DNA of 64,000 nucleotides from Thermoguttaceae bacterium (GTDB lineage Bacteria > Planctomycetota > Planctomycetia > Pirellulales > Thermoguttaceae): contig JANXBW010000006.1 of assembly GCA_025060325.1 (NCBI GenBank), positions 124,001 through 188,000 on the forward strand, in the 5' to 3' direction. Made by a program: the position numbers and the translations under genes. Of the stretch, positions 36,329 through 55,498 are shown piece after piece. Each line of letters begins with the position of its first letter. Position 1 is the first letter of the stretch. Below the pieces are notes generated by a model. The model had not been told where the DNA came from. It made no database searches and worked only from the letters and a program-made list of their open reading frames with translations.

Positions 36329-37333
36329 TTAGCGCCTTCGTTCCAAGACGAATTGGGCCACCGTGATCAGATCATTGGCGGCCTGACCGAAGACGACCAA
36401 GGCTTGGCATGCTTCGTGGATTAAAGCCGCCGCATGTTCCCGACTTGTGACCACCCCGAAAACAGCCGGGTAAGTTAGTTTACCCTGCTTCTGGTCCTTG
36501 CCCGGCGTTTTGCCAAGGGAAATCCGGCTGCCCGACGCGTCGAGGATGTCATCCACAATTTGAAAGGCAAGCCCCAGTTTTTCACCGTAAAGCTCCAAGG
36601 CGGCCAGTTGTTCCGGTGATCCACGGCCAATTAAGCCGCCTAGGCGAACAGAGGCCCGAATCATGGCGGCGGTCTTCCGGCGATGGATCGACCGAACTAA
36701 TTGGGCAAGCTCTTGCCCGCTGACCCTGTGGTCGCTAAGCGAACCCTGCCCTGCTGGCGAGGGAGTTCTTGCAAGCCGCGTGCCCGTACTGGCCGGCATG
36801 CTCTCCCAGGTAACCTCACCCCGGCAAATACATCCAGTCGCCGCGAGATCGTCGGCCTGACCACCCACAAGGTTCTCAGCCCCTGCTGCCTGGGCTAAGG
36901 TCAGGCAGCACTCGACGGCCACAGAAGGTGGGCTAATTCGCTGTGCCAAAAGCTCGAATGCTCGGGCAAGTAATGCGTCCCCCACTAAGATCGCTAATCC
37001 TTCGCCATAAACCCGATGACACGTGGGCCGACCCCGCCGGAAATCGTCATTGTCCATAGCGGGCAGGTCATCATGCACCAGGGAATAGGCGTGAACCAAT
37101 TCCACAGCACAAGCGGCCGGGAGGGCAGCCAATTGGTCCCCCCCGCAGGCCCGACACGCTAGCAACACCAAAATTGGCCGGAATCGCTTCCCCGGCCCAA
37201 GAACGACATATCGGATAGCCTCCGCCAAAAGTGGGGGACAACCCTCCCCGAATTGGAGACAGTCTCCTAAGGCCGCCTCAATAAGCGGGGATATTTCGGC
37301 CGTAATTTCTTCAAAGCTTCTCTGAGACACCAA
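36329..37333 (-). CDS. ispA: Farnesyl/geranylgeranyl diphosphate synthase family
   Basis: Condenses isopentenyl diphosphate with allylic diphosphates. The first Asp-rich motif reads LVHDDLPAMDND (residues 86-95), and the second is QIVDDILDA (258-266); GPGKRFRPIL near residue 47 binds IPP. The short DDxxMD spacing of the first motif fits the bacterial short-chain (IspA) group. Residues about 168-205 form an insertion relative to E. coli-type IspA, rich in Ser, Thr, Gly and Pro, between the conserved GGQADDL and the HRRKTAAMI block. Start is TTG 37333 or GTG 37330; neither has a good ribosome site. It precedes dxs on the same strand. Confidence 0.94.
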   Translation of the reverse strand: MVSQRSFEEITAEISPLIEAALGDCLQFGEGCPPLLAEAIRYVVLGPGKRFRPILVLLACRACGGDQLAALPAACAVELVHAYSLVHDDLPAMDNDDFRRGRPTCHRVYGEGLAILVGDALLARAFELLAQRISPPSVAVECCLTLAQAAGAENLVGGQADDLAATGCICRGEVTWESMPASTGTRLARTPSPAGQGSLSDHRVSGQELAQLVRSIHRRKTAAMIRASVRLGGLIGRGSPEQLAALELYGEKLGLAFQIVDDILDASGSRISLGKTPGKDQKQGKLTYPAVFGVVTSREHAAALIHEACQALVVFGQAANDLITVAQFVLERRR

Positions 37334-38642
37334 GTGGAAGCTACAGCTCCAAAGTGTGATTCACGCTTTTTCCCGGGTCCCGTCCCTTCTTGTTGCCGGG
37401 TCCCATCCCACGATTCGGGGAAACGGTGAACGCTAATCATTGTTCCGCAGTCGTTATTGTGTGCCGGAGCTGCCCGGCGGCGGCAGCTACCCTGCCCTGC
37501 TTTGCACCACGCGAACTTTACGCCATTTTGCCCGCGGAGCGGCCGGGCTTCCGCCAAATGCTCCTGCCCTAGGGCAATTCCAGCGCTACCGATTTAATAG
37601 ACCTGCGGAGGCTCCCTCTGCTTGTGGTCAGTCAAATGAGGACCAAAGCTAGTTTCGAGGCCCGATGGCTCTACTGACCCGCTCCCGCCACTGTGGAACG
37701 CGCCGAAATGCCCGATTTGACTTCGCCACTGTAGCTGGGCAATTTGGCCAAGATCCAGAAGACAGGCGGCTTGGTGAATTTGGAGTGCACCTCCAGGATT
37801 TGCCTCTTGGGCGGCTTTTCCATTCTAGTTTTGGCTCGCAGGGCGGTCTACCGCACGACTTTGCGACCGTTTCCCGCTTGCTACGAGTTCGGCTGACCGA
37901 CTCCCAAGACGGTGCACTGGCATTTGCAAGCAGCGTTTATCTTGCGAGCATTTTGCTTTGCCAGGAAGTTTGCAAACCACGGCGGCTTGCAAAGTAGCGC
38001 CATCTCTACCCACGAGGCCCTTCGCAGGGAATTGCGGCACCGGAACCCCTCGCCGCTTTGGAAAGTGCCACCGAGGCGTCGTCGAAAAACTTTCTCCAGG
38101 CACGCCTATCGGCGCCGGCGATTTTGTCGAACCTTTAACCCTCCATTCGGTGAACCCTAACGAAATTTCTTAGGCGGATCCCCCGGCACCATACGCTAGT
38201 CGATTTAAGGCCGGCCCGGAGCGGTCCTCGTCTTTCGGTAGCCGGAGGTGCCTTGAGAACCAGTCAAGCGACGGCCAAGGAGCTTGCATCTCTTCCAGGC
38301 TCCCACGCAAGGGGCCAGTCGATCAAACCGAACCAGGGCCGAAAAGCAGAAGGCGCCCGAGCCTGAGGCTACAAGTTCTGTTGTCAAGATTGCGCACCCT
38401 GCTCCGTAAAAGATAGTGGAGCAAAATCGCCCCGGTTGGTAAACCTGCTGGAAAGACCCCGACCTTTAGCGAGCGTGTTGAATCATTGCAGTTGTTCACC
38501 ACCTTGGTGCGGTAAGTTCACAAGGCGGTCACCTCGCGAGCAAGGGGCAGACAAATCGACACTTCTTTGTCACAGCGATCGCCGCAGGACCGTGATAAGT
38601 AGGCCGGTAAGGCGTGTAATCCCATCCCCCAGATTTAGCCAA

Positions 38643-39292
38643 TGGGATGCAAACCGATCGGCTCCCATCGCCATTCCCTATCAGCTTTTTGACCAACAAG
38701 GAGCGTCTTTATGGACGCGGACGCGGTTTGCGGCAAAGCCAATCGGAGAGGTGGCTGGGTGAGCCTCCGGATCGTTACGTGGATGAGAACTGCGGTGGTA
38801 AATGCCGGTAGTTTCCTTCGGCGACTGGTGCTCTACAAGCCGGTTAAGGAAGCGCTATCGCCGACCTGCGGGACATTGAAAACGAAATGCTAGTTCGGAT
38901 TCAGGCCAACCTAGCGGAGGTACCGAGCATTGGGGGGCCTCCCTTGGCAGTCGGATCATTCATCTCCGGTATTGAAGGCGCAGTGGAGGTTCTCGTTAGT
39001 TTCATGCGGGAAATAGTTCCGAAGCAGATGGCCGGGGGATAGGATCGTTTGTTGCGAACAAGGTGGTGCCCGGCCTTATCAACTGTGTGTCAGCGCAGGG
39101 TCTAGCTGGGGGGCACATGTTGCTGCGGGGTGGTGGACCTTTGGCATAGGGTTAATCCTGGCAGTGGGAGTCAATGTTATATCCGCGCAAATTCAGAATC
39201 AGATCCGTCGCGAACTCTATGCCCAAATTGCCTTCCAGCTAGATCAGATCCGCGAGCAACTGGTAGGGCATCCGAACGGATTGCGGGCTTAA
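38643..39292 (+). pseudogene. Decayed ORF blocks, one ending in a membrane segment
   Basis: In one frame the segment TNKERLYGRGRGLRQSQSER is followed by in-frame stops TAG and TAA (near 38805 and 38845), then the same frame reads a convincing DLRDIENEMLVRIQANLAEV and SFISGIEGAVEVLVSFMREI until TAG at 39040. The next frame, open 39017-39292, takes over with GWWTFGIGLILAVGVNVISA (a membrane segment) and then the amphipathic QIRRELYAQIAFQLDQIREQ, ending at TAA 39290. A GGGGG run at 39034-39038 sits at the frame change. An alternative start at ATG 38711 has AAGGAG seven bases upstream. The original protein family is not recognised. Confidence 0.5.
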
Positions 39293-39528
39293 TGATTGAG
39301 GATTGCTGAAGACTATTTCAGTAAGCAGAGGGGGCTGGTTGTTGATCATCTTCGGAGGCCTCCTGGCGATGTAGATAACTGGGAACACGGTAGGTGTGCC
39401 CCACGGCCTCTGTCGGCATTATGACTTGCTGTCCGCATTAACCCGGGAAGAAATTAACCGCAGATTTGCGCCCGTTGGGAAAGGAAGTAGGCTCGGTATG
39501 TAAGCAGGCTCGACAAAAGGGGCACTGC

Positions 39529-39775
39529 ATGTCCCGCCTGATCGCCTTGTTTAAGATTCCCTTGGCGCGGTTGCTTGAAGGAGCATGGGTGGCCGCTGCT
39601 TCCGGAATGGTCATTTGTATAGGCGTGCAGGCGGGTTTCTCCTGAGGCAGGCCAGGCAGTAAGGCGGATGGTAGTTAGTCTTCCTGCTATTGGAGTTATT
39701 CCGCTTGTTTTGTTCGGCGGGATCGCTAGGTGGATAGCTCGGCGGCGGGTACTTCTGCCGCGACTTTCAGCAAGC
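39529..39775 (+). pseudogene. Decayed small membrane protein, frameshifted
   Basis: ATG 39529, with AAAAGGGG six bases upstream, opens a frame reading MSRLIALFKIPLARLLEGAW, then VAAASGMVICIGVQAG, ending in TGA at 39643. Just before this stop another frame continues with PEAGQAVRRMVVSLPAIGVI and PLVLFGGIARWIARRR, which includes a second hydrophobic helix. A one-base change near 39640 would join them into one small protein with two membrane helices. Beyond 39775 the sequence loses coding character. No family recognised. It precedes the helicase gene by 430 bases. Confidence 0.4.
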
Positions 39776-40208
39776 CACCCGGCGAGAACTCCCACCTCCG
39801 GGCAATCGCCGAGGCTTGTTCGAAATAGTCAACTCTCCCCGGGAACACCCCGGGCGGCTGCAGGGTTTTTGCACAGGGGTTTCGGGGGATCGATTGTGGT
39901 TCCAGGTTGGACATCGTTTGACCAATCTAAAAACGACGGCGCTTTCGGTTTGCAAAGCCGAGGTCGATGTCCGCTTGATTGAGTGGGACCGCTTCCTCAG
40001 GTAAGTTGGATAATGGAGCAAAGTACGGGTAAACAACGGGGCGCAGACGAAAGGGCATTCTTTTGCCAGAAGAATGCTTGCTTTCTCGGTGGTGCCTAGC
40101 CATCCGAGGAGGGAAGGATGCTTCGCGACTGGCAAGTACGAGGGGAGGACTTTTCAAAGGGCCGGATTCCTGTGCCCTGCCTGCGTTTGCAATAAAAGGA
40201 GGACACTC

Positions 40209-43200
40209 ATGGGCTACCTTGTCTACCATATGGAGGCGATCGAGGAACTCCGTGGCGAAGATCGCAGCAAGATAAAGGAAATCGAGACGAGACTTGTCAA
40301 CGAGCCCGTGAAGCATTCGGGATATGTCCCCTTCTTTGAGGCGCTAGGTCGGGGTTATTTCAAGAAGCGGCTAGAGAAGAAACGCCTGGTCGCCTACCGA
40401 ATGGACGTCCATCTGGAAGGGAAGTGGGTCCCTGTCGTTGTTTTTCTTGAGCTTTTTGATCGCAACGATCCAAGTTATGGCGACGGCAGCGCGGAGTACT
40501 TCGCCCAGCGTTTTGAAAAGCTTCTGGCAAATAAAGAGCCGAAAATAAAGGATTGGGCAGCCAAGAAATTGCAAGAGTTGGCGAAAGTTGCTGTCGTGGA
40601 GCCTAAGCCCCTTCCGGAGGCTGTCAGGGTTATTCACCAGCCGATTATCTCTCAGCGAGGCACGGAGGGGATCTTTCATTCACGTTTGTGGGCACAACAG
40701 TTTGCCAAGCTAGATTCGACCCATTGGAAGGATTTGTATGAAGCCTTGGTTGAGGTGGGCGATCGGGTGGAGAAAGGTTCCTATTCACCAAACCAAGTAG
40801 CTCGGTGCACATTTGGAGAGGTTGAAATCCATTTCGCGCCGCTAAAAAACCCGCAAAGCAACATTTCCCATATTTTCTTTGTTGGCTTTGTTCACCCTGA
40901 GTTAAGCGAGGCTGAGGAACCGATTTGGCAGGAAAGAATTAAGCAAGAGATCGAGCGCCTCGAATACGAGATTCTCTATCCGTTCCTTGAAGATGAGGGA
41001 CTTAAAGAAGAAGACTTTAACAACCGCATTTCTCGATTGTCGGCCTATGCCTACCCTTATTTTATGCTAGGTGATTATGATGAATGGGTGGGCATGATGA
41101 AAAGAAGCGAGGTTCTTCTCCCCCTGTCTTTTGAAGAGCACTCGGTATTAGAGAAGCTGCTTCAAGGAAACTGTTTCCCGGCAGTGATCGAAGGTCGTGC
41201 AGGGAGCGGCAAGACCACCTTGTTAACGTTTTTCGTTCCTCAGCGGCTGGTGCGCGTTCCGCCAACCGACGTTGACTTAAGTGGGGCCAGCTTCGATCTG
41301 CTTTTCCTAACCCAAAGCCGGCGGCTACTAAAGCGGGCCGCGGACACCGTTGATAAGCTTATTGGACAGTTAAAGGCGGAAAAACCTGATAGCCTTTCTT
41401 CAAGTGCAAGGATTTTGCGAGAGCAGTTCCTAACTTTCCACGAGTTTGCTTTACAGCAGCTACCTCCGGAGAGACGGTGGCGGTTCTCACAACGATCGCG
41501 GGAGGGAGGGTGGATTGATTTCTATCACTTTCGCTCGCTTCTTCGTGATCCCAAACGGGGACTCCGCGAAAGGCTCTCACGGGAGCTTCAGAATCCAGAG
41601 GTCATTTGGTTTGTTCTGCGGAGTTACATCAAAGGATTTAACCTGGGGGTTGAGAAAGATGAGCGGTGGATGACACCCGAGCAGTATGCGTCCGGAGAGG
41701 ACATTGGGAACAAGGACCGACAGGTATCTGTGGAGGTCTTTGAAGAGGTCTGGCACAAAGTGTGGCCATGGTACAAGCGGCTCACGGTTCCCTGCCCGGA
41801 GAATGATTTCCATCCAGAATTTTGGGATGACATTGATTTAGCTTGGGAGGTCCTGGACCACCGCGGGGAAAGTGCTCCTTCCTATGCCGTGATTGTCTGC
41901 GACGAGGTGCAGGATCTGAGCCGTGTTGAGCTGGCGGCAGTGCTCCAAAGTTTGGAGCAATTGCGATACCGTATTCGCCCGGAGGAGGTGCGTCAGATTC
42001 CGGTCATTTTTGCCGGTGATTCTCACCAGACCATCAACCCTTCCTGCTTCCGCTGGGCTCGTTTGACGGCGGATTGCGGCAAGGCGCTTGTCCGGCAAGT
42101 GCCCGATGCGGAGTGTCCTTCGATTGAACCTTTTGAGCTTTGTTTCAATTACCGCAATAGGCCCTCCATTGCCCGCCTTTGCAACGCCATTCAATTTTTC
42201 CGTCAAGAAATCCTTAAAGTGCGCGAAAAGCTGCAGCACATTTGGGTGCCGGAAGATGATCCTTATAACCAGGCGGTCAAAACGCTTATTGTCGCCCCCG
42301 GTGATAGCATCTTAGCGCAGCTTTTTAGGAAGGGGGTGCTTTTTGTTGGTCCTGAGCCCGTTGACGTTCAAGACCCACAAGGCAGGGCGTTTTGGAAGGA
42401 GATAGGTTTCCCGGAGGGGCCGCCGGAGCGACAAGCTTACGAAACCCCCGTGGATCTGAAAGGATTGGAGAAAGATTACGTTGCTCTTCTTGGCTTTGGT
42501 ACCGCCTTTAGGTTGCTTGATATCCCTCAGTTTCGTGAATGGGATGGCCGGATGCCATTGAACGAACTCACCGAGCGAGATCGCTTTGCCCTGGAGTATT
42601 TCCTAAACAGACTTTACGTGGCAGCAAGCCGGGCGAGAGAAGAGCTGTGGATTGTAGAAACCAAATCCGGCTGGAAAGCCTTTTGGGAGCCGTTTAAGAA
42701 ATGGTTGGAGGCCCAAAAGGAAAGTAGGCCGTTTTTGTCGTCGGGGGGTGACCTGGCAACCAAGTCGGCAGGTGGGGAGGGGGTCCCGTTTGACCTGACG
42801 TGGGTGGAGGGCAAACCAGAGGATATTATCAAAGTTTTTGACAACAAGTTTGGGGAGTTGGCGAAAGAGTATTTAGATAGAGCAATACAGGATTCGAGAA
42901 ATCCCGAGGATGCAGAGCGTGCGGCATACTACTGGAAGCGAGCCGGAGACGTTATCAGCGAGAGGAAGGCGCGGGCCTGGCAGCTTTATTTACAAGGAGA
43001 AAAATCCAAGGCCGCCGGACTTATGTGGGAAGTTGATCCCTCCCAGGCGGGGGATTGGTGGTGGGAAGCAGCCGACTGGCAGGAGCTGGCAGGAAGGGAA
43101 GTTTCGCCGACTTGGCGGCGCCTTGTAGCCCAGCGAATGATTCAGATCGCATCTTCCCCCCGAAAGTCGCGGATTCTTGAGTTGGAGACCCTTTTCCGTC

Positions 43201-45041
43201 AACGTGGCGATTATGTCGATAAAGATCGACGAAGAAGTCCGGAAGCCTGGCTCACGTGGAGTCAGATCTTAACAGAGATTGTTGAGGGAGCAGGAGCGAG
43301 TGATTTTACCCGGCAGGAACGGGAACAAATTGTGGATTTAGCCCGGCGTTACGAGCATGAAGCATTTAAAGATCCCGTCCGCTTCCACAAAGCAATGGCT
43401 CAACTGTACTTTTTCTTGGATCGCTTCGAAGATGCCGTAGGGCACTGGGAGGAAGTCAACGACAAAGGCCATCGGGACTACTTTTTGGCAAAGGCCCGCA
43501 TCACTCCGTTCCCTGCCTGTCTTGCTTTTTATGAAAGTGCGCAGGACTGGGATGCCATTGTCCGCGAGGACGAGCTCAACCGGGACAAGCGATTGTCGGT
43601 CGAGGACTACCGACGGGTCTTCCGGGCATGTTTGGAAAAGGGGCGCCTTCGCCGCGCGGTCGAGGTCGCGGCTGCTATTGGCGATCGCGAGTTCAGCTCG
43701 CGATGGGCGTTGCTGATTGAGGATGAAAGGGTTGGGGATCTGCGAAGTCTTGTGAGAGCGGCTCGAGCGACCTTGGAAAATGCTATTCGGTCAGAGTTGG
43801 AAGCCTCGTCGGAAAAGACCGATGAGTTCGAGGAGCGATTGCGGGCAGAGGTCAACAGCCGCTGGTCTTTCCTTATATTGGACACCTTACAATTTGTTTA
43901 CGAACGTAGCACGCGTTTCGAGCGATTTGGAAATGAACGAACATGGTATCCGTTGCTTGATGCCCTAAGCCTCGGCAATAATCCCGACGCTGTGGCCGGC
44001 CGATTCCAGACCATTTGGGAAAGACGCTCCGAACTACCTGAACGGTGGGCGCAAGCGGCGCAGTTGCTCGACCATCTTGTTGATTTCGCTTTGGTTCTTC
44101 TGGAAGAAAAGTGGAGATTGAAATATGTGCGCGCAGTAGCGAACCTCACCCATTTAATCGTGGGGTTGGTTTGGGGGGTTGCTCGGGAAGATACCCCTGA
44201 GGGCCGAAAGCGCCGCGTTTACGACGACATGTTGGGCGGCCATTTTGATGTCGTAAGCCCCCGAGTGTACGTGCGAAGTTCGAATTTCGGTGGCGAGGCG
44301 CGTTTTGATCGGACTGACTTCGCGCAAGAATTCCTGGGGGTTGTGCGCAAAGCTTTGGAGGCGGTGGCCGAGGCTCCACCTGGGCTTTTGCGATCTGCTT
44401 CCGGTCCGGATTACCGGGACTTTCGTGACTTATTGGATGGAATTGGGTATGGCTTGTTAAAGCATGTACAGTTGGTGGCCAGAACCGGTCAAAGCCGGCC
44501 TACACCCGATCAAGAGGATTGGTGGAAATTGGCAGGGAAATTTGTTCGCAGGTTGCCATTCCGTAAGCTGGCCGTGGCATTTTTTAATGAGCTTAAGAAG
44601 ATTCACGAGAACCTTGGTACCTCGCAAGAGTTTGAGCGGTACATCCGCGAAGGCCTGCGAGAGGCCCAAAAAGACCTGGATGAATTTCGCGATAGATCCC
44701 GGGAGTGGCGGCTGGGGCCCGGTGAGTGGAGAGAGGATGGAGATCTTTTGGTTCGAAGTCTCCCCAACAGGCCGGAAATTATTATCGAAGTGCTGCCTAG
44801 CTATGACCAGCTTCGGTTTGCTATAGAGGACAAGACAGGCGAGGCAACTTTGAGCCGGCCTAGAAGCGTGGAAGTAGATCGCACTGGGCGTGACGGTCGG
44901 GCGAGGTGGTGGCAGTTTCGTTCGCCGGCCGGGAAGCTTATCCGCATTGTTTGGGAGGAAGGAGAAAGACAGGTCCGCGTGGAGGGCGAGGCGACTTTTT
45001 GGGTGACGCTTGCCGAATGGAGGAGAGGGGCCGAGCAATAA
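40209..45041 (+). CDS. Giant UvrD-like SF1 helicase with long flanking regions
   Basis: 1610 residues. The SF1A core spans about residues 310-850: Walker A EGRAGSGKTTLL (about 329), motif II VCDEVQDLS (about 564), motif III VIFAGDSHQT (about 601), motif IV LCFNYRNRPSI (about 645), a motif V-like LKGLEKDYVALLGFG (about 752) and motif VI YVAASRAREELW (about 803). All key residues are intact, so ATPase activity is likely. The N-terminal 310 residues and the C-terminal 750 match nothing I know; the latter is helical and starts with TPR-like units (ERAAYYWKRAGDVISERKARA). AAAGGAGG six bases before ATG 40209 fixes the start. It stands alone on its strand beside decayed genes, which fits an accessory, possibly defence-related, gene (inference). 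Confidence 0.88.
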   Translation: MGYLVYHMEAIEELRGEDRSKIKEIETRLVNEPVKHSGYVPFFEALGRGYFKKRLEKKRLVAYRMDVHLEGKWVPVVVFLELFDRNDPSYGDGSAEYFAQRFEKLLANKEPKIKDWAAKKLQELAKVAVVEPKPLPEAVRVIHQPIISQRGTEGIFHSRLWAQQFAKLDSTHWKDLYEALVEVGDRVEKGSYSPNQVARCTFGEVEIHFAPLKNPQSNISHIFFVGFVHPELSEAEEPIWQERIKQEIERLEYEILYPFLEDEGLKEEDFNNRISRLSAYAYPYFMLGDYDEWVGMMKRSEVLLPLSFEEHSVLEKLLQGNCFPAVIEGRAGSGKTTLLTFFVPQRLVRVPPTDVDLSGASFDLLFLTQSRRLLKRAADTVDKLIGQLKAEKPDSLSSSARILREQFLTFHEFALQQLPPERRWRFSQRSREGGWIDFYHFRSLLRDPKRGLRERLSRELQNPEVIWFVLRSYIKGFNLGVEKDERWMTPEQYASGEDIGNKDRQVSVEVFEEVWHKVWPWYKRLTVPCPENDFHPEFWDDIDLAWEVLDHRGESAPSYAVIVCDEVQDLSRVELAAVLQSLEQLRYRIRPEEVRQIPVIFAGDSHQTINPSCFRWARLTADCGKALVRQVPDAECPSIEPFELCFNYRNRPSIARLCNAIQFFRQEILKVREKLQHIWVPEDDPYNQAVKTLIVAPGDSILAQLFRKGVLFVGPEPVDVQDPQGRAFWKEIGFPEGPPERQAYETPVDLKGLEKDYVALLGFGTAFRLLDIPQFREWDGRMPLNELTERDRFALEYFLNRLYVAASRAREELWIVETKSGWKAFWEPFKKWLEAQKESRPFLSSGGDLATKSAGGEGVPFDLTWVEGKPEDIIKVFDNKFGELAKEYLDRAIQDSRNPEDAERAAYYWKRAGDVISERKARAWQLYLQGEKSKAAGLMWEVDPSQAGDWWWEAADWQELAGREVSPTWRRLVAQRMIQIASSPRKSRILELETLFRQRGDYVDKDRRRSPEAWLTWSQILTEIVEGAGASDFTRQEREQIVDLARRYEHEAFKDPVRFHKAMAQLYFFLDRFEDAVGHWEEVNDKGHRDYFLAKARITPFPACLAFYESAQDWDAIVREDELNRDKRLSVEDYRRVFRACLEKGRLRRAVEVAAAIGDREFSSRWALLIEDERVGDLRSLVRAARATLENAIRSELEASSEKTDEFEERLRAEVNSRWSFLILDTLQFVYERSTRFERFGNERTWYPLLDALSLGNNPDAVAGRFQTIWERRSELPERWAQAAQLLDHLVDFALVLLEEKWRLKYVRAVANLTHLIVGLVWGVAREDTPEGRKRRVYDDMLGGHFDVVSPRVYVRSSNFGGEARFDRTDFAQEFLGVVRKALEAVAEAPPGLLRSASGPDYRDFRDLLDGIGYGLLKHVQLVARTGQSRPTPDQEDWWKLAGKFVRRLPFRKLAVAFFNELKKIHENLGTSQEFERYIREGLREAQKDLDEFRDRSREWRLGPGEWREDGDLLVRSLPNRPEIIIEVLPSYDQLRFAIEDKTGEATLSRPRSVEVDRTGRDGRARWWQFRSPAGKLIRIVWEEGERQVRVEGEATFWVTLAEWRRGAEQ

Positions 45042-45066: not shown

Positions 45067-45130
45067 AGGGCATGTCACAGGTTCGGCCGGCGGGAGGGGC
45101 CGGGTGATTATGATTCTGTCGACATGCCCT
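45067..45130. terminator. Long inverted repeat between convergent genes
   Basis: AGGGCATGTCACAG at 45067-45080 pairs with CTGT-C-GACATGCCCT at 45116-45130: fourteen paired bases with a one-base bulge and a GC-rich loop of about 35. One arm lies just downstream of the helicase stop, and the other lies inside the last codons of the convergent gene. It could end transcription from both sides, although no T-tract is present. Confidence 0.45.
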
Positions 45131-46010
45131 CTTCTCTTTCGGCGGGCCGTTCGTCGGGGCGCTTATAAAAGCGCTCCAGGTTAATGCCGCCGCGGAGCTC
45201 TTCCTCTAGGAGCTTGAGGCGAACCTCAAGACGCTGGAGCTTTCGGCTTAGAAGCATAATCGTCTTCTGCGGGGACTCTTCGCGCCGCGGCCGAGGCACC
45301 GAGGGATACCCAAGATGTCGGGAAAGCGCAGCAAATAAATAAAGCGGATCTTTTTTGCGGTTAGCGGCTGCAATCTTTCCCTCCTTTTCCCCAAAGAGAA
45401 TGGGCTTTCCCGGATCGCCGAAGAGTTGCCGGTAATATTCGCTTCGCAGGAAAATGAGGTCGGCAATATCCAGGAGGCCCACTTGTCGACGAACGGTGAG
45501 GATCCATTCGCGCCAGTTTTCATCGAAAATCGGGTCCCCTGCCATAGCAGTCAGGCCACGATCGTAACCTAGGCGGTTTCGGCAGAGGGTCTCGAATTGG
45601 TAGAGAAATATCCCTTGCGGGGTGGCCCCCTGGACACGGTACTCGGCTTCTTTTTGAAGCACCTCAAGAGCGATGCGGAAATCAAATCGGCCATCGTCCT
45701 TTTCGGCCTCGTGGATGACAAAGGTTTGGAATGGCGTAAAGTAATGACTGAGCCGTGCCATCGCTGTGGCAAAGCCGCCGGTTAGCCGCAGCTCTGCGGC
45801 CAGGAAATCAAGAGCAAGTGGTAGCCGAGTTGTTGATAAAATCTCCTGCTTGATGGACTTAATTAGCTCTTGGGTAGAGACATTTTCCTCTAATCTTTCG
45901 CGGAGGGTGCGGAAGAAGTAGGCTTGTTCGATATACTCCTCCCGCTCCAGAAGCTGAGCTGGACCTGCGATTTGTTTTTCGATGTAAGACCAAATTTGAG
46001 CTTGGGTCAT
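45108..46010 (-). CDS. Hypothetical helical protein, convergent with the helicase
   Basis: 300 residues, cytoplasmic in appearance (no signal or membrane segment). It is rich in Glu, Arg and Leu. Residues about 240-275 (QKTIMLLSRKLQRLEVRLKL) look like a coiled coil. The centre contains TLCRNRLGYDRGLTAMAGDP and FDENWREWILTVRRQVGLLD, with no motif known to me. ATG 46010 has no clear ribosome site. It lies tail-to-tail with the giant helicase and is divergent from nothing obvious, so a functional link is possible only by proximity. No function assigned. Confidence 0.75.
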   Translation of the reverse strand: MTQAQIWSYIEKQIAGPAQLLEREEYIEQAYFFRTLRERLEENVSTQELIKSIKQEILSTTRLPLALDFLAAELRLTGGFATAMARLSHYFTPFQTFVIHEAEKDDGRFDFRIALEVLQKEAEYRVQGATPQGIFLYQFETLCRNRLGYDRGLTAMAGDPIFDENWREWILTVRRQVGLLDIADLIFLRSEYYRQLFGDPGKPILFGEKEGKIAAANRKKDPLYLFAALSRHLGYPSVPRPRREESPQKTIMLLSRKLQRLEVRLKLLEEELRGGINLERFYKRPDERPAEREEGMSTES

Positions 46011-53846: not shown

Positions 53847-54181
53847 GCAACGGCGCAAGCTTCGGTCCAACGTGACTCCGCGGCCGTCCTCAGGGCCTCG
53901 CTCCTCCCTTTACGTTCTTCGTCTCGGAATCTTATGACCCGCGAACCAAGGCCCGGTTCGTCTTTGTGTTGCAGCTTTGTCAAGGTCGGAAGGGGGTATC
54001 CGTAATTTACCTGAGGGAAGTCTTCCGATCGCCGGCGATTTTTGCCGGTATTGGCTTGTCCGGGTGCGGTGGCAAGTTGGGCCCTCATGCCTCGGAGATA
54101 CGTTGGGAACTTCCCTGCTTGGCATAGGGGTTCATAGGCAGGTTTGGTTCAGTGGTCTCTTTGCCAAACGGAGTAAAGGTT
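53847..54181. other. Gap without recognised gene
   Basis: No coding or RNA signature seen. The 3' end holds GGAG eight bases before the ATG at 54182 of the next gene. Confidence 0.4.
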
Positions 54182-55498
54182 ATGGTTTGCGGTGCTAGGC
54201 GACGCAAGGTGGTGTGTGGGGTTGTTGTGTCGGCTGTCCTTCTAGTCTTGGCGGCGGGTGGCGGCGAGAGGGCTCTTTTTGCCCAAGATGGTTTGGCGGT
54301 TAAGCCTTTGGGGACTTCGCTCCTCGGAAAGGAAGACCTACCGCCTTCGCGACGAGCTGAGTGGCTTTCGGCCAGCCAAGATCTAACGAAGCGCCAAGTT
54401 ATCGCTGAGGAGCTGGGTGAAAAGGCAGCCCGGATTTACGCCCGAAAGCAAGGGTGGCAACCCATTTCAGACGGCACTTCAAAGCAACTATCTATCGGGC
54501 CCGATCAGGTATGGCGGAATCCTGCCACGGGGGAGGTAATCGTGATTGAAGCCAAAGGCGGATCCGGGCGCCCAATCGTGAGCTACGGCGAAAAGCAAGG
54601 GACCTCCATGTGGGCCGTGAAGTCAGCACAGTCGGTACTTGGGCATAAGGGCGCCTCCCCAAATGAAATCAGGGCAGCCAAGGCCGTTCTGCAAGCAGCC
54701 GCCGAAGGCAAGCTTCGAGTCCAGACCACGCGATTGGAACACGTCTTAGGCGAGCCCACGAAGCTCCTTCTGGAAGCGGACGAAGTTACGTCTCCCCAAG
54801 CAAAGGAGCTAGCCCGACGAATTTGGGCAGGGATTGTGGGTGGTGCGCATCGTGCGTCCATTGGAGGTAAAGGGAGCAGCCGCTCCGGTGCCGCTATCCA
54901 GCCGGCGAGGGAGACTCCGGGAAAGAACCTACTGGCGGCATCAGATGTGCAACCTCGCCCCCAGCAAGCAACTTTGAAGAGCTGGGAGGTTCGAGGTGGG
55001 AAACCCGGCTTGGGATCGAAAGTTGGTGTCCCGGCGGCTGCGGGCAGCGCTGAGCCCCTCAGCATGGGAGCAGCTTTGCCAAGCCAGGGCGGGACCAGGG
55101 TAAGTGCTCCGGCCAGGCCTGGAGAGTTTTCGCTCAATTCTGGGGGGACAAAAAGTCCTGTCGTCGGACGAATTGTTACGCCGGCCGTAGTTGTGGTCTC
55201 TGTCGCAGGATTTGCTCAGGAGGCGTACGCCGTTGAGCAAGAGTACGCGGATGGTGTTATTACAGCCGAAGAGCGGTCGCAGAGGCATGCCGAGAACGCC
55301 GCGGGACTGGCAGGTGGCTGGGCTGGGAGTTTCGTGGGCGGGTACGCAGGCGCAGCGGCAGGTGCCTTGGTCGGATCCTTTGTTTGTCCGGGGGTCGGAA
55401 CGGTGGCAGGCGCATGGGTGGGCGGGTTGCTCGGAGGCATCGCTGGTTATCATGTGGGGGATACCGCGGGGCGGCAGGCCGTACGAGGGCTGTATTAG
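54182..55498 (+). CDS. Secreted PD-(D/E)XK-like protein with glycine-zipper tail
   Basis: 438 residues. The N terminus is a signal peptide (VVCGVVVSAVLLVLAAGG, cut near LFAQ). Residues about 70-220 form a restriction-endonuclease-like domain: GEKAARIYARKQGWQPIS, then GPDQVWRNPATGEVIVIEAK, where Asp108, Glu123 and Lys125 fit the D...ExK site, followed by GTSMWAVKSAQSVLGHKGAS. Residues about 220-330 are a low-complexity Gly/Pro/Ser linker. About 330-345 is hydrophobic, and about 375-430 is a glycine zipper (GGYAGAAAGALVGSFV, GTVAGAWVGGLLGGIAGYHV), able to insert in a membrane. GGAG sets the start at ATG 54182. The layout resembles secreted nuclease toxins, but no toxin activity is shown and no immunity gene is confirmed. 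Confidence 0.72.
   Translation: MVCGARRRKVVCGVVVSAVLLVLAAGGGERALFAQDGLAVKPLGTSLLGKEDLPPSRRAEWLSASQDLTKRQVIAEELGEKAARIYARKQGWQPISDGTSKQLSIGPDQVWRNPATGEVIVIEAKGGSGRPIVSYGEKQGTSMWAVKSAQSVLGHKGASPNEIRAAKAVLQAAAEGKLRVQTTRLEHVLGEPTKLLLEADEVTSPQAKELARRIWAGIVGGAHRASIGGKGSSRSGAAIQPARETPGKNLLAASDVQPRPQQATLKSWEVRGGKPGLGSKVGVPAAAGSAEPLSMGAALPSQGGTRVSAPARPGEFSLNSGGTKSPVVGRIVTPAVVVVSVAGFAQEAYAVEQEYADGVITAEERSQRHAENAAGLAGGWAGSFVGGYAGAAAGALVGSFVCPGVGTVAGAWVGGLLGGIAGYHVGDTAGRQAVRGLY

Follow-up and report, generated by a model that had tools for sequence, protein, structure and literature searches.

Toxins of the RelE family are normally restrained by a separate antitoxin, and they often stabilise mobile elements. 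A RelE domain also lies inside a larger protein in Cami1, whose layout we take to be CARF-RelE, with a cyclic-nucleotide sensor where the protein described below has an SF1 motor and a TPR-like half. The structure 8phj shows Cami1 together with cA4 on the 70S ribosome. RelE itself cuts mRNA in the ribosomal A site; according to PMC2807027, the mutations R61A, R81A and Y87A lowered cleavage, K52A and K54A caused no significant decrease, and K54 was considered a residue that may stabilise the transition state. RelE-like domains have been described in defence helicases as well. The CoCoNuT report (PMC11090510) places a RelE/colicin D-like domain, found by structure, between the OB fold and the helicase of CnuH. 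According to the ARMADA report (PMC12458937), ArmD of ARMADA type II (E. coli ATCC 8739 ECOLC_RS20870) has a RelE-like N-terminus and a GajB/UvrD-like SF1 helicase, sits in a defence operon, and belongs to a system whose protection is direct and non-abortive. No description of a RelE-SF1-TPR protein was found in the literature that we searched, mostly as titles and the starts of abstracts and with subscription papers outside its scope; a word search of PMC11980606 turned up no helicase.

We analysed a stretch of 64,000 nucleotides from a Thermoguttaceae bacterium (hereafter, the window), which contains a long gene with a putative layout of this kind (Table 1). As the preliminary description had stated, the frame is open over 1,610 residues, which would happen by chance with a probability of about 2.5e-26 at the base composition of the window, and the open reading frame at 40209-45041 is real. 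Its GC content by codon position (0.62, 0.41 and 0.57) lies within or slightly under that of five other window genes. The frame is already open from an ATG at 40074; the ATG at 40209 was taken as the start because a ribosome-binding site precedes it and because its position is shared by an ATG in L009 and L017, the two nearest relatives. The gene is the sole match in its own genome. Searched alone against Pfam, NCBIfam, PADLOC and PDB sequences, the protein matched nothing at curated cut-offs; AAA_22 (6.8e-5) and UvrD_C_2 (6e-4) were both under the Pfam cut-off, and beyond these two nothing was found at E 1e-3. NCBIfam and PDB sequences gave 0 matches each, and PADLOC gave weak matches to Nhi and GajB (whole protein against GajB, 0.024). 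Elsewhere in the window, at 54152-55498 on the forward strand, lies a 448-aa protein whose start looks signal-like and whose C-terminal segment is rich in glycine (by eye), possibly a toxin-like or surface protein.

Table 1. Coordinates in the window of the gene, its predicted parts and its flanking genes.
Feature	Position	Strand	Basis
Complete gene (1,610 aa), comprising the RelE-like and second alpha/beta domains, the SF1 motor and the TPR-like half	40209..45041	+	
Ribosome-binding site AAAAGGAGG ahead of ATG 40209	40194..40202	+	direct sequence reading
Predicted RelE/HigB-fold domain, residues 1-113	40209..40547	+	AlphaFold model, VIA-align
K52, K in 54/59 rows, aligns with RelE K54	40362..40364	+	MAFFT alignment
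R59, 59/59 rows, aligns with RelE R61	40383..40385	+	MAFFT alignment
R85, 56/59 rows, aligns with RelE R81	40461..40463	+	MAFFT alignment
Y90, 57/59 rows, aligns with RelE Y87	40476..40478	+	MAFFT alignment
Second alpha/beta domain, residues 137-300	40617..41108	+	secondary structure of model; hhalign to first domain
SF1A (UvrD/GajB-like) helicase core, residues 304-846, motifs I-VI	41118..42746	+	
Motif I (Walker A) GRAGSGKT, residues 329-336	41193..41216	+	
Motif II VCDEVQD, residues 563-569	41895..41915	+	
Motif VI NRLYVAASRAREEL, residues 800-813	42606..42647	+	
TPR-like helical region, residues 847-1510	42747..44738	+	family-level Pfam TPR matches
Strand-rich-looking tail, residues about 1511-1610	44739..45038	+	by eye from sequence
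Left flanking gene, by eye a polyprenyl synthase-like one	36329..37333	-	
Right flanking gene, 92% identical in G001	45108..46010	-	

The N-terminal part had been described as matching no known family, a statement superseded for residues 1-113, which are predicted to have the RelE/HigB fold. An AlphaFold model of residues 1-321, built from an alignment of 59 rows (A3), had a mean pLDDT of 91 and a pTM of 0.60; a single-sequence model of residues 1-314 (pLDDT 38) was discarded. In a Foldseek search with the model, the first ten PDB rows comprised nine RelE-type or toxin-antitoxin chains and Cami1 (best E 2.5e-3, prob 1.00); a fold search of BFVD had no match at E 1e-3. VIA-align superposed the model on HigB2 (Z 9.0, 96 aligned, rmsd 3.1), on Thermus thermophilus RelE (Z 8.1, 80 residues, rmsd 2.2) and on Cami1 (Z 7.2 over model residues 1-123). 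Judged from their titles, 46 of the best 50 VIA-align rows were toxin, toxin-antitoxin or Cami1 chains, which we take to be members of the RelE superfamily; the other four were Txp40, BLOC-3, TrmO and Sec22b. A Z of 8 was reached by only 7 of 999 chains, and the tool warns that lower values may reflect common arrangements. Since the VIA-align rows span model residues 1-112, the fold claim is confined to residues 1-113, and none is made for residues 114-321. The segment MDVHLEGKWVPVVVFLELFD (residues 65-84), earlier singled out as a beta/alpha segment of the N-terminal part, falls within two strands of the RelE-like sheet.

The N-terminal alignments used 58 of the 81 loci from L017 to L097. Five ORFs truncated at the 5' end were dropped, as were L018, which has an in-frame stop, L055, whose N-terminus is short, five loci without the Walker pattern, L087 (the same record as L011) and ten judged to be near-duplicates or truncated. 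In the resulting alignment A2 (59 rows), the four least variable well-filled columns of the domain are R59, Y90, R85 and K52; the window protein keeps all four, and by MAFFT they fall on E. coli RelE R61, Y87, R81 and K54, respectively. RelE K52 is without a counterpart in the family, which has F or L there. Comparisons at the sequence level returned little: Pfam ParE_toxin matched 2 of the 59 N-terminal rows (best 2.9e-4) and not the window row, the A2 profile found no RelE in the PDB, and hhalign of the domain against a ParE set that included a few wrong-strand rows (by eye) gave a non-significant probability of 1.4%. Because this sequence-only support is weak, the RelE assignment rests on the model and the residue pattern. 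The putative RelE domain is probably mRNA-cutting, and we consider it fairly likely to be an active RNase. The RelE family PF06296 matched in 7 of 149 phylum genomes, and these loci were left out of the analysis. In the same-genus relative L009:435-5348 (the same gene as L018, from a Thermogutta MAG, genome G002, contig C174), an in-frame TGA stands at codon 100, just past the RelE-like core, and may reflect decay, an assembly error or recoding.

Downstream, residues 152-261 have the order b-a-a-b-b-b-a in the secondary structure of the model, similar to the RelE-like domain. The hhalign comparison of the second domain with the first was collinear over 79 columns (p 0.048, probability 1.1%), and a degenerate RelE copy in residues 137-300 is possible, as a lead only.

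The motor makes up about one third of the protein, and its SF1A motifs are intact, both as previously described. Motifs I, Ia, II, III, IV, V and VI begin at residues 329, 367, 563, 602, 647, 749 and 800, and by motifs I-VI the window protein is classed as an SF1A (UvrD-like) helicase. The core and C-terminal alignments used 50 of the 81 loci; 11 of 13 checked motif residues are identical in all 51 family rows, and the two that vary are T336 (S in 45 rows, T in 6) and Y648 (Y in 50 of the 51). By profile, the nearest solved proteins to the core are PcrA, FBH1, UvrD1 and GajB. The GajB profile PDLC00122 was matched by 37 of 51 family cores at E 1e-3 or better (best 1e-10); the core of the window row matched only Nhi (4.4e-4) and did not match PDLC00122 at 1e-3. 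The C-terminal half, which had been said both to recall TPR helices and to match no known family, appears TPR-like in part of the family, where TPR_2 matched 12 of 51 C-terminal regions (best 1.1e-7) and TPR_1 matched 9 of 51 at E up to 0.1. The first statement is thereby supported for those members and the second partly withdrawn; the window row's own C-terminal region matched neither TPR_1 nor TPR_2 at that threshold.

With the parts in place, the protein can be compared with the described systems. ArmD, the nearest known protein, has 704 aa and ends just past motif VI without a TPR half, whereas the window protein has 1,610 aa. The best blastp piece between them is 32% identical over 66 aa (E 0.016); ArmD scored 26.8 bits against the family core profile and nothing significant against the RelE-domain profile, and it reads KHDEAY where the window family has R...Y. 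The ArmA, ArmB and ArmC genes of the ARMADA II operon were not seen by eye beside the window gene, whereas all three are found at L065, a relative described below. The window protein thus resembles ArmD in layout but by sequence is a distinct, larger variant and not an ArmD, and it stands alone. RelE/HigB type II toxins resemble the window domain in predicted fold and catalytic residues; here, however, the domain is built into a 1,610-residue protein, and no adjacent antitoxin-like ORF is common to the loci. Gabija GajB has a similar SF1 core, but no GajA-like gene was seen by eye beside the window gene, and the window protein has the additional RelE and TPR-like parts. The same order of parts, RelE-UvrD-TPR, occurs in three cousins, the planctomycete L013 and the cyanobacterial plasmid loci L014 and L015, which score 135-177 bits against the core profile but are shorter (962-1,172 aa) and have HDD in place of R...Y. 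Pfam TPR matched L013 and, weakly, L015, and weak Pfam toxin matches (YoeB and HigB-like) were obtained for L014 and L015 (E 0.023 and 0.012). A further RelE-UvrD-type protein, L016, carries an ankyrin annotation; some of L013-L016 are plasmid-borne, and annotated cas1-cas2 genes are found at a distance of about 7.7 kb from L014.

The gene is accessory. Its protein is matched in 3 of 60 genomes (its own and others of the genus, family and order) and in 4 of 392 genomes of a phylum-wide draw, the own genome included in both counts; one of the four (G155, L013) is a cousin. A search of genome contigs with the single window protein gave no related loci; the five-row alignment A1 gave 97 relatives in a set with a single genome for each species, and the best 80 of them were retained. 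The 50 relatives in the core tree belong to 11 phylum-level groups, which is a lower bound because only two peptide patterns were scanned. In this tree, the window protein joins L017, L019, L020 and L021 to form a planctomycete group of five (support 100/100), and the planctomycete L094 is placed elsewhere, outside the group. Phage records gave no match at 1e-3, viral contigs gave 1 relative, and 114 plasmid records matched, all below 60% identity and each spanning less than 80% of the query.

In the same-genus genome G001, counterparts of the two flanking genes lie at C9:239798-240775 and C9:242534-243412, separated by 1.76 kb versus 7.8 kb in the window, and the interval has no blastn match; G001 is an empty site for the window gene. 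The G002 relative is close to the start of contig C174 and has different genes to its right, and the flank counterparts are on C27 and C111. Taken together, G001 and G002 point to a gene that is gained and lost and has no fixed site. Upstream of the gene, the 2.9 kb at 37334-40208 are without a long ORF, and the 1.76 kb at the same place in G001 have no blastn match to them. Decayed genes had been described beside the gene; the interval 37334-40208 has no ORF above 129 aa, and no gene remnant was identified in it. A search for a housekeeping position shared by most planctomycetes was negative. The initial guess of an accessory or defence helicase gains support from the patchy distribution, the empty site in G001 and the position of certain relatives near CRISPR, restriction-modification and ARMADA/DISARM-like genes.

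The close relative L019 follows, at a distance of 542 bases, a run of genes on its own strand that includes Cas3g, Cas8g and Cas56g, and L022 lies 167 bases upstream of Cas10, followed by Csm3 (CRISPR III). L083 has HsdS on one side and HsdR on the other (type I restriction-modification), L074 adjoins a type II-associated helicase, and Pfam identified methyltransferases near L089 and L025. At L065, a DrmD/BrxHII-like helicase and a DrmMI-like methyltransferase flank the gene on one side and a DruE-like helicase on the other, all on one strand with gaps of 169 and 16 bases. Homologues of E. coli ArmA, ArmB and ArmC are present there (E 1e-32, 1e-13 and 4e-31); ArmA and ArmB also match at L089, and ArmB at L025. 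At a threshold of E 1e-8, E. coli ArmD matches only L014 among 89 loci; it finds nothing at L065 at this threshold, at which so diverged a copy could be missed. The stretch L065:638-19532, from a Lindowbacteria MAG, is laid out as an ARMADA-like operon with a 1,435-aa family member between the ArmB-like and ArmC-like genes, the ArmA-like gene being on the ArmB-like side. L019 and L020 are two diverged copies in one genome (Pirellulaceae KatS3mg110), and L019 is the copy beside the type I-G (I-U) CRISPR run.

A defence neighbourhood was seen for L019, L022, L065 and L083 and not, by eye, for the window gene or for L020 and L021, which have no defence gene within five ORFs. The ten neighbours of relatives that were scanned with PADLOC had been picked by eye; among 10 neighbours scanned with Pfam, 3 gave nothing. 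In a wider comparison, 277 PADLOC profiles were matched at 1e-10 by 147 near ORFs (of 179 eligible, from 53 of 64 loci) versus 108 by 135 far ORFs (of 250 eligible; 139 were picked from 30 loci and 4 open-ended ones dropped), a contrast that is suggestive only, since the loci are partly different, the profiles overlap heavily and the counts are of profiles. Defence enrichment is not established for the family, because the neighbours were picked by eye and the near/far comparison is confounded. No fixed partner emerged either. The largest neighbour family shared among 827 ORFs (at least 70 aa, from 74 loci) spans 7 loci, all cyanobacterial; of the 622 ORFs with 30-130 aa that lie no more than 500 bases from the gene at 76 loci, none was common to more than 4, and the ORFs of this size near the window gene were not matched at other loci. 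These comparisons give no sign of a common antitoxin or partner, and an adjacent cognate antitoxin as in type II modules was not found, though unrelated antitoxins may lie at individual loci.

Our preferred reading, which we hold with somewhat better than even confidence, is that the protein is an anti-phage (anti-mobile-element) factor that has spread horizontally and that carries an RNase of the RelE type within a large SF1 motor protein, where other such RNases would be paired with an antitoxin. The occurrence of some relatives inside antiviral gene clusters suggests that it probably guards the cell against viruses, and we regard a defence role of the window protein as likely; against this, no defence gene was seen by eye at the window locus. 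The A-site cleavage by RelE described above (PMC2807027), the lack of a common partner and the presence of relatives in many phyla would also fit translation quality control, in which the SF1 motor and TPR half sense aberrant mRNA or ribosomes that have stalled, whose message the RelE domain then cleaves, as a bacterial analogue of mRNA surveillance. Such a role seems unlikely, given that the gene is rare and patchy even within one genus and that some relatives lie in CRISPR, restriction-modification and ARMADA-like clusters, unlike a core factor.

The resemblance of the core to PcrA, FBH1, UvrD1 and GajB by profile, together with the methyltransferase or restriction genes that adjoin several relatives, could instead point to a DNA repair or restriction-associated helicase whose RelE-fold domain is a nucleic-acid or protein binding module without catalysis. 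The four columns with the highest conservation align with RelE active-site residues, which a module that serves only for binding would have no need to retain, and we give this explanation a similarly low probability. Lower still, and in our judgement improbable, is a stand-alone addiction or stress toxin that is controlled within the same chain and serves mobile-element maintenance or dormancy and not defence. The general tendency of RelE-family toxins to stabilise mobile elements would agree with it, as would the different places that the gene occupies in related genomes (on contig C174 of G002, with a different set of genes to its right), but addiction would not need a 500-residue motor with kept motifs and a TPR-like half, and no antitoxin-like partner was found.

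If the defence reading is followed, the motor and the TPR half would keep the RNase domain inactive in the resting state. Engagement of the motor with invader nucleic acid, or with an intermediate of a partner system, would be the trigger, and ATP turnover would expose the RNase domain, which would then cut mRNA in the ribosomal A site, so that translation of the invader or of the cell would stop. Caging by the motor and the TPR-like half is a tentative conjecture, to which we give rather less than even weight. For ArmD, the direct and non-abortive protection reported for ARMADA (PMC12458937) does not favour cell-wide translation shut-off; the RelE-helicase fusion there seems not to act by cell killing, which calls for caution here.

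A bolder and more doubtful generalisation is that the relatives may form a widespread, unnamed family of single-chain immune proteins composed of a toxin (active RelE RNase), a sensor or motor (SF1) and a cage (TPR-like, possibly with a degenerate second RelE). Such proteins might act alone in some hosts and have been recruited separately as a plug-in effector by CRISPR, type I restriction-modification and ARMADA/DISARM-like systems in others, wiring the processing of invader nucleic acid to ribosome-targeted mRNA cleavage. The proteins join a predicted toxin fold, complete with catalytic residues, to a motor of the phage-defence type, in a family that spans at least 11 bacterial phyla, some members of which adjoin several unrelated immune systems. 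ArmD is a RelE-helicase fusion needed in one proven system, of which the window family would be a larger relative able to stand alone. If the domain is active, the recognition of invader nucleic acid would be linked directly to the cleavage of mRNA on the ribosome, and the family would offer a testable rule for how toxins may be tamed inside immune proteins, by caging through a motor and without an antitoxin.
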